This document shows, piece after piece, positions 1-5,032 of a stretch of 64,000 bases of DNA (position 1 is its first letter; each line of letters begins with the position of its first letter). This stretch comes from a candidate division WOR-3 bacterium. Lineage in GTDB: Bacteria > SDB-A. The position numbers and the translations under genes are program-made. The stretch is from assembly GCA_016926475.1 (NCBI GenBank), contig JAFGON010000073.1, forward strand, positions 19,909-83,908, given 5' to 3'. The notes under the pieces were generated by a model that did no database searches, was not told the origin of the DNA, and worked only from the letters and a program-made list of their open reading frames with translations.

Positions 1-1366
1 TTCCTTCGATTTTCTTTGAGACAGGCATGTCGAGGATCTCGATGGAAATTTCCGGAAAGTCCTGTCCGAAAGGGCCGAAACGAGACAGTGTGGCCAGGAC
101 ATCATCGGTTATTTGATCTTTTTTAGCAGAAAAATCTATTCGGATTTTTCTGCGGAACAGTCCCCCCAAACCTGATTTTTCAAGAGCCTTGAAAAATTCG
201 CCCACTTTCGAGCTCTCGATTTTTGCTCCGCAGGCTTTTTTGTGACCTCCAAAAGAGCTGAACAAGTTCTGTCGCTCTTCCAAAACCGACAGTACATCTC
301 CATAAATCGTCCTTCCTTCAACTGTCTCAAAAGAATTTTCATCCAGAGCTCCGACGACGAAAGCCGGTTTGGTTTCAGAAAGGGTCAGCTTCGAGGCTAT
401 GGATCCGAGTATACCCCTGGGTGCATCTTTATCTCTAAAAACCACGAAATGTCCGATATTTTTTTTCATCGACTCCGCCTTCGAAAGAGCTGTTTCCCGC
501 GCCTCAATCCATTTTCGGGATCTTTTCACCATGGACTCGGCGCTGGTGGTATCTGGACTGTCGGTTAAAAAGTTGAAAGAAAGAGATGATCCTTCTACTG
601 ACATATCCGATGATATTGGAGATATGATAATCCTCTTAATCTCTTCGGTGGTCTCGGGAACAGAGGATTCCTGAAACGAACACAAGAGGTCAATAGCCTG
701 AAATCTGAATTTGTCAAGTGCTTCAATTCCTCTTTTCACGATTGTTCTGTTTTCTCCAACCAGTGGAACCCTGTCGCTGATAGTCCCGAGAGAAGCGAGC
801 AGCCATAAATAAGGATCCTGTGAAAATTCAAGGGCAAATTTCAAAGCAAGACCGCTTCCGGAGAGATCATCGAAAAGATAATCGCTGTCATGCCTGTGAC
901 AATTCACTATTATTCTGTCTCCAAGATAAGATGCGGGGATTTGGTGATGGTCGGTGACAACGAGCTTGACCCCTTCATCGGACAGATAAGATGCTGCGAC
1001 AGTATCCCTGCTGCAGCAATCTACGGTAATTACCAGATCCGTTTTGTTTTTCTGTATTTCTCTCTTCAAAGATTCGAGGTTCATTCCGATCCCTTCGGCT
1101 TTTCTGTCCGGTATATATGCCCTGACCTTAGCCGCTGATGAAGATAGAGCAAGGTATAAAAGAGAAGCGGCTGAAATACCGTCGCAATCCTGATCCCCCC
1201 ATATAAGTATCTGACCTTTGTTTTCCATGGTCTGCCTGATCACTTTCAAGGCTTTTTCAAATTGAGGAATGCCCGGGGAATCAAGCCAGATATCTTCCGT
1301 GAGAAAATTTTCTGTCAGATTCCTTTTAGAAATCACCTTTTCGATGAACTTCTCAGCTGAAGGCAT
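1..1366 (-). CDS. recJ: Single-stranded-DNA exonuclease RecJ (3' part cut by window edge)
   Basis: DHH/DHHA1-family 5'-3' exonuclease acting on single-stranded DNA in recombination and mismatch repair. About 455 codons are open to the left edge. Visible signatures are the aspartate cluster GDQDCDG near residues 57-63, the DHH triad near 139-141, the DHHA1 signature FGGHKKACG, and the late RecJ signature RFGPFGQDFP. The ATG at 1366 lies inside the end of scpA, giving a 34-nt overlap that implies translational coupling; no better start is seen. The C-terminus lies outside the window. The family call is firm; the exact start is less so. Confidence 0.9.
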   Translation of the reverse strand, partial: MPSAEKFIEKVISKRNLTENFLTEDIWLDSPGIPQFEKALKVIRQTMENKGQILIWGDQDCDGISAASLLYLALSSSAAKVRAYIPDRKAEGIGMNLESLKREIQKNKTDLVITVDCCSRDTVAASYLSDEGVKLVVTDHHQIPASYLGDRIIVNCHRHDSDYLFDDLSGSGLALKFALEFSQDPYLWLLASLGTISDRVPLVGENRTIVKRGIEALDKFRFQAIDLLCSFQESSVPETTEEIKRIIISPISSDMSVEGSSLSFNFLTDSPDTTSAESMVKRSRKWIEARETALSKAESMKKNIGHFVVFRDKDAPRGILGSIASKLTLSETKPAFVVGALDENSFETVEGRTIYGDVLSVLEERQNLFSSFGGHKKACGAKIESSKVGEFFKALEKSGLGGLFRRKIRIDFSAKKDQITDDVLATLSRFGPFGQDFPEISIEILDMPVSKKIEG

Positions 1367-2052
1367 ATCTTCCCGTTAATTTTCCCCTGAGAAACCGAAA
1401 GAAAAGAATTTTTCGCGAGTTCGAGGACAGCCATAAAGCTGGCTATAATCCAGGGTTTGTCTTTTCTGTTGTCGAGAATTTCAGGAAATGGCACCTCTCT
1501 TGAAGGGTTTTCGAGCATGATATCTGTTATCCTGTCGATTCTATCTTCAAGAGGGATTTGATCTATTATGTATTTAAGAGACTTAATTTTTCTATACCTT
1601 TGTGTTAGTTCTCTCGCCGCGTTGATTAAAAATATCACATCCATGAATTTCTCTTTATCCTCTATCGCCGGTCTTGCGGCAGGTCTTATCTGAATGTGTC
1701 TCAATCCTTCATTTTCCATAGCTTTAAGTCTGCTCGCCGAGTCTCTGAAAAGCTGGTAGATAAGAAGCCTTTGAGTCAGTTCTTCTTTAGAAAGATCAGG
1801 CTCGGAAATTTCTTCGCTTCGAGGTGAAGGCAACAAAGCTCTGGCTTTCATCCTCATCAATGTCGAAGCCATGTCGAGAAAATCGACCGCGATTTCCATG
1901 TCGAACTCTCTCATCACGTTTATATAAGCTAAGTACTCGTCTGTGATGTGAGAAATAGGTATGTCGTATATATCGAGCCGATCCCTTCTGATAAGGTATA
2001 ACAAAAGTTCGAGAGGCCCTTCAAAAATTTCTAATTTTACAGAAAATCCCAT
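1333..2052 (-). CDS. scpA: Segregation and condensation protein A
   Basis: ScpA is the kleisin subunit that bridges SMC heads and works with ScpB in chromosome condensation and segregation. The 239-residue length is normal. The N-terminus carries the family signature FEGPLELLLYLIRRDRLDI, followed by the conserved middle segment FLDMASTLMRMKARALLP. A winged-helix-like C-terminal region is present. Its 3' end overlaps the recJ start by 34 nt. No scpB is seen next to it, which is unusual since scpA and scpB often sit together. Confident by signature. Confidence 0.93.
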   Translation of the reverse strand: MGFSVKLEIFEGPLELLLYLIRRDRLDIYDIPISHITDEYLAYINVMREFDMEIAVDFLDMASTLMRMKARALLPSPRSEEISEPDLSKEELTQRLLIYQLFRDSASRLKAMENEGLRHIQIRPAARPAIEDKEKFMDVIFLINAARELTQRYRKIKSLKYIIDQIPLEDRIDRITDIMLENPSREVPFPEILDNRKDKPWIIASFMAVLELAKNSFLSVSQGKINGKICLQLRSSSKR

Positions 2053-2089: not shown

Positions 2090-4240
2090 TCACGAAAAGA
2101 TTCTTTCGGGATAACATTTATCGCAAACCGGGCACCACCAATGCCTGCAAGGTTCGCATTTAACGAGTTTTTCGCCGCAATCCGGGCAAGTTTTGGATGT
2201 CGATTTATCAATATCAGGTTCTTTGGCATAGATAGGTTGAACGTATTCAGAGCAGTTTTCACACCAGTATTTGTTATACTTACTTACATAAGTTGTATTG
2301 CCGCCGCATTTAGGGCAGAGAACGGCGTTTTCTTCATTTTTTGAAAGAGGCTTTTCTTCGACAATCGGTTTGGAAGGTGGAACTACTTCAATTTTCTCAA
2401 GCCCGAAATCGAGCGGCATGTATTTTTCACAGTTGTCGCACCAGTATCTTTGATATTGCTCAATAAACCTGACTTTTTTACCGCAAAACGCGCATTTCAA
2501 GCCTTCATCTTCCGTGGATACTTGCTCAACAGCCGCTTCTAAAATTTCTTCATCCTCCTCTTGAGGACTGACTATTTCTATCTCTTTGATGTTTATTGCC
2601 TCTTCAGGGGCAGTGTCTTGTTTTTTTCCAAAGCCAACCGGCATATACTCTCCACAGGTGTCACACCAATACCTGTCATATTGTTCGATGTATCTTGTAT
2701 TTTTATTGCATTTAGGACAGATAAGTGCCACACCCTCTGATTCACCGGCTCCGACCACAGAAATCTGCTCGGCTTCATCGAGGTTCTCGACTTCTTCATT
2801 TTCAAATTCTAGGTCGAGATCGGCTGTCTCAGACCTTTTAAAATCCTCAACTCGCTGGCTTACATCCAATGCTTCCGAAGTCGCTTCTTGTTCGGAGGTA
2901 AGATTCTCACTCTCCGGCATTGGAGCCACGGTTTCCTCCTCGAGAGGAACCGAAAGTTGCTCTTCTGTCAGGGAAATAGTGCCCAGATCAACAGCCTTTT
3001 CCTTGGATTGGATAATTTCATCGGAAACTGCCGAAGCAGTCTCTTCCTCTCGTGAAACATCTGTCTTATCGGGTTCATCGCCAACGGTGACAGGAGAACC
3101 CTTGAATCCGACCGGCATATACTCTCCGCAGTTGTCGCACCAAAACCTGTCATATTGAGCAATATACCTCACTTCTTCTTTGCATTTGGGACACCTGAGA
3201 ACAAGTTGCTCTTCAACGTCCGTATCATCTTCTGAGGGCGCGACAACAGTTTTTACAAAATCCTGCGTTAAATCTTTTTGAACATAGGAAACCTGTTGAT
3301 CCAAATCCTGGACAACAGTCGCTGTCTCCTCTTCTACGGGTTCTTGGGCATCAATGGTATCTTCCACTCTGCCAGTTTCGATAACTTCGGCTTCCTCAAC
3401 CTGATCGAAAGCCAGTTTCACAGGTTCATCGGAGGTCGGTTTTTCAATACTCTCGGGGATTATCTCTATCTTGTGTTCCAGTATTTCAGCTTTCTTTTCA
3501 GTCGAGATTTCCGATTCTAAACCAACATATTCCAGGCATTTATCGCACCAATAGCGGCCGTATTCTTCTATCCTTCTCAAAGGAGCTCCGCACTTCGGAC
3601 AGTTCTTTTCCGACACTTCCGCTTTTTCTTCAGCAATTTCCTTTGAAACCGACGGGTATGATTCTTCCTTTTCAGAAGCATATTCAAGGCAGACATCGCA
3701 CCACCATTTTTTATACTCGTCTATGTATCGTAAAGGGGATTTGCAAACAGGGCATGTTCTTTCTTCTGGTTTGTCAGAGGGAGTTTCTTTTAATTGCACT
3801 GATTCTGGAACCGAGACGTTTTCTTCCTCCATTTCCGAATCTGTATCACTGGAGCTTTCTACAGGTTTCCCAAAGTTGACCGGCATGAATTCTGCACACA
3901 TATCACACCAGTATCTGTCGTATTCTTCGAAATATTGAAGTTCATAATTGCATACAGGACATTTAAGCTTGTGTTCAGTTTCCAGCGGGACAGTTATTTC
4001 TTCAACAGGGCTCTCTTCAACAGCTGTTTCTGATATCTCTTCTATGATTTCAGACTCGGCTTCCTTGCCGAATTCCGGTTCCATATATTTTGCGCAGGTA
4101 TCGCACCAATACCTATCGTAGGGTTCAATATATCGCAGAAAACTGCCGCAATCCGGGCACTTTAGAGCTTGATCCACTTTAACTGAATCCGAACTTTTGA
4201 GGTCTTTATCATTGAAAGGTATATCGGAATCATCGAACAT
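2090..4240 (-). CDS. Protein with nine tandem zinc-ribbon modules
   Basis: Unrecognised 716-residue protein made of nine copies of a 35-40 residue CPxC...YWCDxC module. A typical copy reads CPDC, about 10 residues, YDRYWCDTC, then YMP-FG. The copies are joined by long acidic linkers rich in Glu, Ser, Thr and Val. Each module has four Cys spaced as in a zinc ribbon, so up to nine zinc ions may be bound. The last copy is diverged (CPDC...WWCPVC). There is no signal peptide or membrane segment, so it is probably cytosolic. GGAGG sits just before the ATG, and divergent promoters are shared with dapH. Function unknown; a scaffold for protein or nucleic acid binding is only a guess. Confidence 0.85.
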   Translation of the reverse strand: MFDDSDIPFNDKDLKSSDSVKVDQALKCPDCGSFLRYIEPYDRYWCDTCAKYMEPEFGKEAESEIIEEISETAVEESPVEEITVPLETEHKLKCPVCNYELQYFEEYDRYWCDMCAEFMPVNFGKPVESSSDTDSEMEEENVSVPESVQLKETPSDKPEERTCPVCKSPLRYIDEYKKWWCDVCLEYASEKEESYPSVSKEIAEEKAEVSEKNCPKCGAPLRRIEEYGRYWCDKCLEYVGLESEISTEKKAEILEHKIEIIPESIEKPTSDEPVKLAFDQVEEAEVIETGRVEDTIDAQEPVEEETATVVQDLDQQVSYVQKDLTQDFVKTVVAPSEDDTDVEEQLVLRCPKCKEEVRYIAQYDRFWCDNCGEYMPVGFKGSPVTVGDEPDKTDVSREEETASAVSDEIIQSKEKAVDLGTISLTEEQLSVPLEEETVAPMPESENLTSEQEATSEALDVSQRVEDFKRSETADLDLEFENEEVENLDEAEQISVVGAGESEGVALICPKCNKNTRYIEQYDRYWCDTCGEYMPVGFGKKQDTAPEEAINIKEIEIVSPQEEDEEILEAAVEQVSTEDEGLKCAFCGKKVRFIEQYQRYWCDNCEKYMPLDFGLEKIEVVPPSKPIVEEKPLSKNEENAVLCPKCGGNTTYVSKYNKYWCENCSEYVQPIYAKEPDIDKSTSKTCPDCGEKLVKCEPCRHWWCPVCDKCYPERIFS

Positions 4241-4274
4241 CTATACCTCCGTCAAAATGACATAAACGTTTTAT

Positions 4275-4303
4275 TTGCATATTTTCGACTAATAATATAT
4301 ACT
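4275..4303 (+). promoter_or_regulatory. Sigma70-type promoter for dapH operon
   Basis: A -35 box TTGCAT (4275-4280) and a -10 box TATACT (4298-4303) are separated by 17 nt. The dapH ATG lies about 30 nt downstream of the -10 box. No clear Shine-Dalgarno sequence precedes that ATG. Confidence 0.45.
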
Positions 4304-4323
4304 GTCGTCAATTAAGTTGTCAA
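4294..4323 (-). promoter_or_regulatory. Sigma70-type promoter for the zinc-ribbon gene
   Basis: Reading the minus strand, a -35 box TTGACA (4323-4318) and a -10 box TATATT (4299-4294) are separated by 18 nt, upstream of the ATG at 4240. It overlaps the oppositely directed dapH promoter, so the two may compete for polymerase. Confidence 0.5.
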
Positions 4324-4333
4324 GAAAATAACC

Positions 4334-5032
4334 ATGAATACAGAAGAAATAATAAGATACATATCGGAAAATCCCAGAAAAACACCTGTTAAAGCCTATA
4401 TAAGAGGAAAGCCCAGAAATTTGGAAAACAGTAAAATCCGAATTTTCGGAGAAGGCAATTTTTGGATTGTCTTCGGGGACTACAAAGATGTATTATCGTT
4501 TCTGGAAGAGAACAAGGATTTCATAACCGATAGACATATCGAAATTTCCGCCCGAAATTCTGCAGTTCCAACCGCTGATATTTCAAAATTCAACGCAAGA
4601 ATAGAACCTGGCGCCATAATTCGAGAAATGACCCAAATTGGTGAAGGTGCTGTCATAATGATGGGAGCCGTGATAAACATCGGAGCAGTCATCGGTTCTA
4701 AGACAATGATAGACATGAATGCGGTGATAGGCGGCAGGGCTGTTGTTGGCGAAAAATGCCATATAGGAGCAGGCGCGGTAATAGCGGGTGTCATAGAACC
4801 TCCTTCCGCTAGACCTGTTGTAATTGGAAAAGGAGTTTTGGTTGGAGCCAACGCTGTTATACTGGAAGGCGTCGAGGTCGGCGAAGGTGCAGTTGTTGCC
4901 GCTGGAGCTGTCGTAATAGACGACATACCCGGAAATGAAGTTTGGGCGGGAGTTCCGGCAAAATTTATAAAAAAAACTGATTCTAAGACTTTGGAGAAAT
5001 CAAAAATCGTCGAAGCCCTGAGAAATCTCTGA
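4334..5032 (+). CDS. dapH: Tetrahydrodipicolinate N-acetyltransferase
   Basis: Acetylates tetrahydrodipicolinate using acetyl-CoA, committing the acetylated branch of the diaminopimelate/lysine pathway in the cytosol. The 232-residue length fits DapH. The N-terminal helix region contains PRKTPVKAYIRGKP, typical of DapH, and it is followed by a left-handed beta-helix of hexapeptide repeats (residues ~90-205). The C-terminal signature is PGNEVWAGVPAKFI. Its TGA overlaps the ATG of the aminotransferase (TGATG), so the two are translated together, which supports consecutive pathway steps. DapD (succinylating) is the main alternative, but the N-terminus favours DapH. Confidence 0.88.
   Translation: MNTEEIIRYISENPRKTPVKAYIRGKPRNLENSKIRIFGEGNFWIVFGDYKDVLSFLEENKDFITDRHIEISARNSAVPTADISKFNARIEPGAIIREMTQIGEGAVIMMGAVINIGAVIGSKTMIDMNAVIGGRAVVGEKCHIGAGAVIAGVIEPPSARPVVIGKGVLVGANAVILEGVEVGEGAVVAAGAVVIDDIPGNEVWAGVPAKFIKKTDSKTLEKSKIVEALRNL

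Follow-up and report, generated by a model that had tools for sequence, protein, structure and literature searches.

A conserved, undescribed bacterial protein of nine predicted zinc ribbons is encoded next to scpA and resembles tandem-ribbon proteins of archaea

Zinc ribbons contact nucleic acids in RPB9/TFIIS, archaeal RPA, PriA, and eS31. The described families closest to the protein analyzed here are Zn_ribbon_6 (PF07191), which we take to be a double zinc ribbon found in small two-ribbon proteins such as E. coli YfgJ, and the ribbon of eS31/S27a (PF01599). In a 64,000-nucleotide stretch of the genome of a candidate division WOR-3 bacterium, hereafter the window, an open reading frame on the minus strand encodes nine ribbons in 716 residues, in contrast to the small two-ribbon proteins of PF07191. 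Its modules resemble the ribbon of eS31/S27a in cysteine spacing and in the Y-D-R-x-Y-C motif, although the latter is a single ribosomal ribbon rather than an array. The features of the array gene are given below; ribbons 1 to 8 were assigned from their cysteine pattern and from folded islands in a structural model, and ribbon 9 from its cysteine pattern and comparison with orthologues.

4294 to 4323, minus strand: promoter-like TTGACA-18-TATATT (11/12, the best of the region; consensus match only)
4246 to 4250, minus strand: GGAGG ribosome-binding site ahead of the array ATG, read from the sequence
2090 to 4240, minus strand: open reading frame of the nine-ribbon protein, 716 residues, ATG start, pI 4.3, 39 cysteines; orthologues found
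4094 to 4159, minus strand: zinc ribbon 1, residues 28-49, CPDC..WCDTC
3896 to 3961, minus strand: zinc ribbon 2, residues 94-115
3689 to 3754, minus strand: zinc ribbon 3, residues 163-184
3536 to 3601, minus strand: zinc ribbon 4, residues 214-235
3128 to 3193, minus strand: zinc ribbon 5, residues 350-371
2654 to 2719, minus strand: zinc ribbon 6, residues 508-529 (pLDDT 86 when modelled alone)
2429 to 2494, minus strand: zinc ribbon 7, residues 583-604
2252 to 2317, minus strand: zinc ribbon 8, residues 642-663
2114 to 2188, minus strand: ribbon 9, divergent, seven cysteines, residues 685-709

The protein contains exactly nine C-x2-C-x14-C-x2-C modules, starting at residues 28, 94, 163, 214, 350, 508, 583, 642, and 685. 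An earlier note on this DNA had described a single cytosolic protein in which nine near-identical Cys4 modules, joined by acidic linkers, form a regular repeat. The single reading frame and its nine modules were confirmed by residue shuffles (n = 2000), none of which produced more than one module motif, and by an independent orthologue, 49% identical, that retains every module. The linkers are indeed acidic (30% D/E, 8% K/R, net charge of -94), and the protein appears to be soluble since a 19-residue hydropathy scan peaked at 0.98 and revealed neither a transmembrane segment nor a hydrophobic signal. The nine modules together are near neutral (-1), with net charges between -3 and +2 for single modules. 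This charge shifts along the chain, from -3 to -1 in the N-terminal modules to +1 to +2 in the C-terminal ones. Near-identity of the modules did not hold, as pairs within the protein share 21 to 67% identity (mean of 41%) and ribbon 9 has seven cysteines, a different core, and no Y-D-R-Y-W motif, features that are kept in all orthologues. The repeat is not regular either, since linkers of 7 to 122 residues space the modules unevenly. Cysteine accounts for 5% of the residues (39 in 716), comprising the 36 ribbon cysteines and 3 extra cysteines in module 9. No nucleotide tandem repeat was detected in the array gene, as expected of old repeats.

Four genomes of the searched set belong to the phylum of the window (G000, which is the window's own, to G003), and a profile search found the array gene in all of them, in single copy. 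The orthologues of G001 and G002 have nine modules, those of G001 being split 4+5 across two contig ends. The orthologue of G003, which belongs to a sister genus, has ten modules and occupies the same locus. The G003 record (LKUE01000226.1) is labelled Desulfuromonas sp. SDB and groups in the phylum and family of the window; this public name looks wrong. The unusual E-rich composition might suggest that the array gene is a spurious open reading frame or an assembly artefact. The same frame and all cysteines are kept in orthologues of three independent assemblies, and a ribosome-binding site and an operon are present, which contradicts this extremely improbable explanation. We conclude that the nine-ribbon protein is genuine, conserved, and undescribed.

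The best match of each module was the module at the same position for 9/9 modules in all three congeneric species pairs. This one-to-one orthology indicates that the modules are not interchangeable and that the nine-module array is older than the split of these species, contrary to the recent duplication that had been proposed. Between genera, only some of the modules pair, the last one (ribbon 9) most clearly. Judging from these pairings, the modules are old, diverged paralogues in an array that predates the genus and that has been at least partly rebuilt between genera. The module tree is based on 36 columns and most of its deep forks are unresolved; no order of duplications is claimed. Among the three congeneric proteins, the module cysteines were invariant (39/39), as were 65% of the other module residues but only 19% of the linker residues. 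Thus, selection acts beyond the metal ligands, on the rest of the module. One linker stretch, located before module 6 (window positions 2720 to 2830), differs from the variable linkers in being conserved in the genus (DLDL..E.E.V..LD..E..SVV.AGE); it is possibly a short binding motif.

The array gene appears to head a conserved, presumed operon. The neighbors present in the window are the following, scpA having been identified by a profile and all the other neighbors by sequence motifs.

1333 to 2052, minus strand: scpA (condensin kleisin), following the array gene in the presumed operon (PF02616, E = 3.9e-27)
1 to 1366, minus strand: DHH-family (RecJ-like) phosphoesterase, extending past the window
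4334 to 5032, plus strand: dapD-like acyltransferase, divergent neighbor kept in all four genomes, read from the sequence

Beyond the window, the DHH gene is followed by sigma-70, purE, and tsaC-like genes. The order array-scpA-DHH-sigma70-purE-tsaC is complete in G000, G001, and G003, that is, in three genomes of two genera, and the scpA, DHH, and dapD part of the locus was seen in G002. None of the 26 scpA loci examined in other phyla had an array beside it, and the linkage was seen in one family-level group only. ScpB is encoded elsewhere in G000 and G003, which ruled out the array as a replacement for ScpB; the search for ScpB in G001 and G002 found none.

These data bear on the possibility that the protein is a zinc reservoir, its nine or more sites buffering cellular zinc without any partner. 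The invariance of the 36 ribbon cysteines and of the 3 extra cysteines of module 9 would suit this role, as would the high acidic content. However, metallothionein-like stores are small, dominated by cysteine, and constrained at cysteine only, whereas the nine-ribbon protein is long and poor in cysteine, with conservation of its modules well beyond the ligands. A buffer would require neither this non-cysteine conservation nor the identity that modules keep by position, and the conserved operon contained no recognizable gene for zinc uptake or zinc regulation. A zinc reservoir is therefore quite unlikely.

Taken singly, none of the modules was observed to score above a curated Pfam cut-off. The whole protein scored 56.9 bits against PF07191 (cut-off of 25 bits), and the module pairs 3+4 and 8+9 scored 26.5 and 26.6 bits, about 1.5 bits above the cut-off; pair 8+9 of an orthologue gave no match, and single modules fell below the cut-off. 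The whole protein thus passes PF07191 and a few other ribbon models through the summing of many modules. Ribosomal_S27 (PF01599) remained below its cut-off (12.8 versus 22.3 bits). NCBIfam gave no match above cut-off, and PHROGs gave weak matches only, to families mostly of unknown function. No well-described family having the same repeat number and a known function was found, and searches of open-access literature did not turn up any account of comparable zinc-ribbon arrays.

In the AlphaFold2 model of the whole protein, nine islands (pLDDT of about 75 to 88) are separated by linkers with values below 50. One module modelled alone, from 34 aligned modules, reached a pLDDT of 86 and formed a ribbon-like hairpin (12-16/21-24). 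The cysteine pattern and the model together display the two CxxC knuckles and beta hairpins of a C4 zinc ribbon fold. Comparison of one module with solved structures returned no significant fold match (none with E < 0.1, Z at most 3.8), the weak neighbors being archaeal RPA (best E of 0.18) and RPB9-type and PriA ribbons. Sequence matches to solved structures were at chance level or limited to the knuckles. The fold matches were too weak for a family assignment from structure, and they point, weakly, to zinc ribbons in general rather than to one family.

The same neighbors raise the main rival to the scaffold that we propose below, namely that the ribbons contact DNA or RNA, perhaps acting on the chromosome alongside ScpA or in transcription alongside the sigma factor. 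RPA, RPB9-type, and PriA ribbons all belong to nucleic-acid machinery, eS31 is the nearest sequence look-alike of the full motif (E of 0.02), and the operon is shared with scpA and a sigma factor gene. However, every fold match is below significance and ribbons of all functions look alike. In addition, the charges of the modules and the strongly acidic linkers are unlike those of typical nucleic-acid binders. We consider a nucleic-acid binder to be a rather unlikely explanation.

A profile built from 17 modules of this phylum was used for genome searches. Among 386 bacterial genomes, arrays were found in this phylum only. A few other bacterial lineages have a single module, in particular in DnaA-like AAA+ proteins (L019:2-1687 of Caldiserica; L024 to L027 of the bacterial families f72 and f185, among them L024:134-1993, L026:698-2821, and L027:58-2292), in which the same module is flanked by the DnaA ATPase domain and by a distinct domain at the C-terminus, and does not form an array. 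Matches to Bac_DnaA ranged from E = 1e-45 to 1e-73 where searched. In Caldiserica, response-regulator genes follow the DnaA-like gene. These proteins may represent a branch of DnaA devoted to signalling. A match in G013 corresponded to the zinc fingers of topoisomerase I and was dropped. A viral, phage, or plasmid origin of the array was rejected, as no relatives were found in those collections.

In archaea, the class containing 'Euryarchaeota archaeon EA_22' gave module matches, many of them in tandem, in 103 of the 200 genomes searched, with E values down to 4e-14 per genome. A broader draw around EA_22 gave matches in 164 of 400 genomes. This class is probably Thermoplasmata, to judge from the record name of the archaeon. 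The unfamiliarity that the earlier note had attributed to the architecture therefore stands for bacteria and does not extend to prokaryotes as a whole. The archaeal proteins share with the bacterial array several C-x2-C-x14-C-x2-C modules per chain, the Y.[RK][YW][YW]C motif, and linkers that are often acidic or Pro/Glu-rich. They have fewer modules, 2 to 7 in the proteins retrieved (a maximum of six by profile and seven by pattern), and the bacterial arrays are the longest zinc-ribbon arrays seen in this analysis. The main archaeal type has a 2+4 layout, a SAP domain (PF02037), and two C-terminal transmembrane helices, which the nine-ribbon protein lacks (no match to SAP). Examples of this membrane-anchored family, which is common in the sampled class and for which no description was found in the literature, are L097:1031-2737, L101:1107-3197, and L018:2577-4988, with a SAP or SAP-like segment. 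Soluble archaeal arrays with acidic linkers also exist (L092, L105, and L078). One of them (L092:594-2519) combines a helical, weakly HEPN-like N-terminal half with six nearly identical ribbons spaced by about 49 residues; unlike the nine-ribbon array, it looks like a more recent expansion. On sequence grounds, the nine-ribbon architecture has common, undescribed archaeal counterparts.

The frequency of module matches in the archaeal class and the existence of soluble arrays would be compatible with an archaeal-type protein gained by gene transfer and doing the job of the archaeal arrays, as a membrane-linked or soluble adaptor. However, the bacterial arrays are devoid of the SAP and transmembrane parts of the main archaeal type, and bacterial modules tend to resemble each other more than archaeal ones. 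With 36 columns, no tree can settle this origin, which is by itself silent on function. Acquisition by transfer appears unlikely.

The most likely role of the nine-ribbon protein, which we put forward tentatively, is that of a cytosolic, vertically inherited scaffold of the beads-on-a-string type, multivalent through its ribbons. Each of the nine C4 ribbons would fold around one zinc ion, and the long, acidic, disordered linkers would separate the ribbons and reduce non-specific contacts. Protein partners, rather than nucleic acids, would dock onto the ribbons, each of which has a sequence specific to its position, so that a single chain could gather several partner molecules. A multivalent binding surface, as the earlier note had suggested, can reasonably be inferred from the conserved non-cysteine residues of the modules and from the disordered linkers. 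The scaffold is further supported by the number of modules and their one-to-one positional orthology, the contrast between neutral modules and acidic linkers, the single gene copy, the operon, the promoter-like and ribosome-binding sites, and the predicted islands. Against it, zinc ribbons also bind nucleic acids and the linkage to scpA is found in one family-level group only. Partners could be the co-operonic chromosome or transcription machinery (ScpA or the sigma factor), candidates named by guilt by association only. In a bolder version, which is distinctly improbable, a phylum-specific hub would use its nine position-specific ribbons to tether several copies or kinds of chromosome or transcription factors (ScpA/SMC and the sigma factor). 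Together with an archaeal counterpart family built from this module, it would form a class of multivalent hubs so far undescribed in prokaryotes.

The nine-ribbon protein is one variant of a common, though undescribed, archaeal architecture. Its ribbon module, which taken singly is captured by no curated model, is common to a little-known bacterial phylum and to half of the genomes sampled in an archaeal class, and it has been repeatedly assembled into arrays of 2 to 10. If these arrays are not docking hubs, they nevertheless reveal a widespread family without a known function. If they are, prokaryotes would possess an analogue of the multivalent adaptors of eukaryotes, and the operon supplies concrete first candidate partners.
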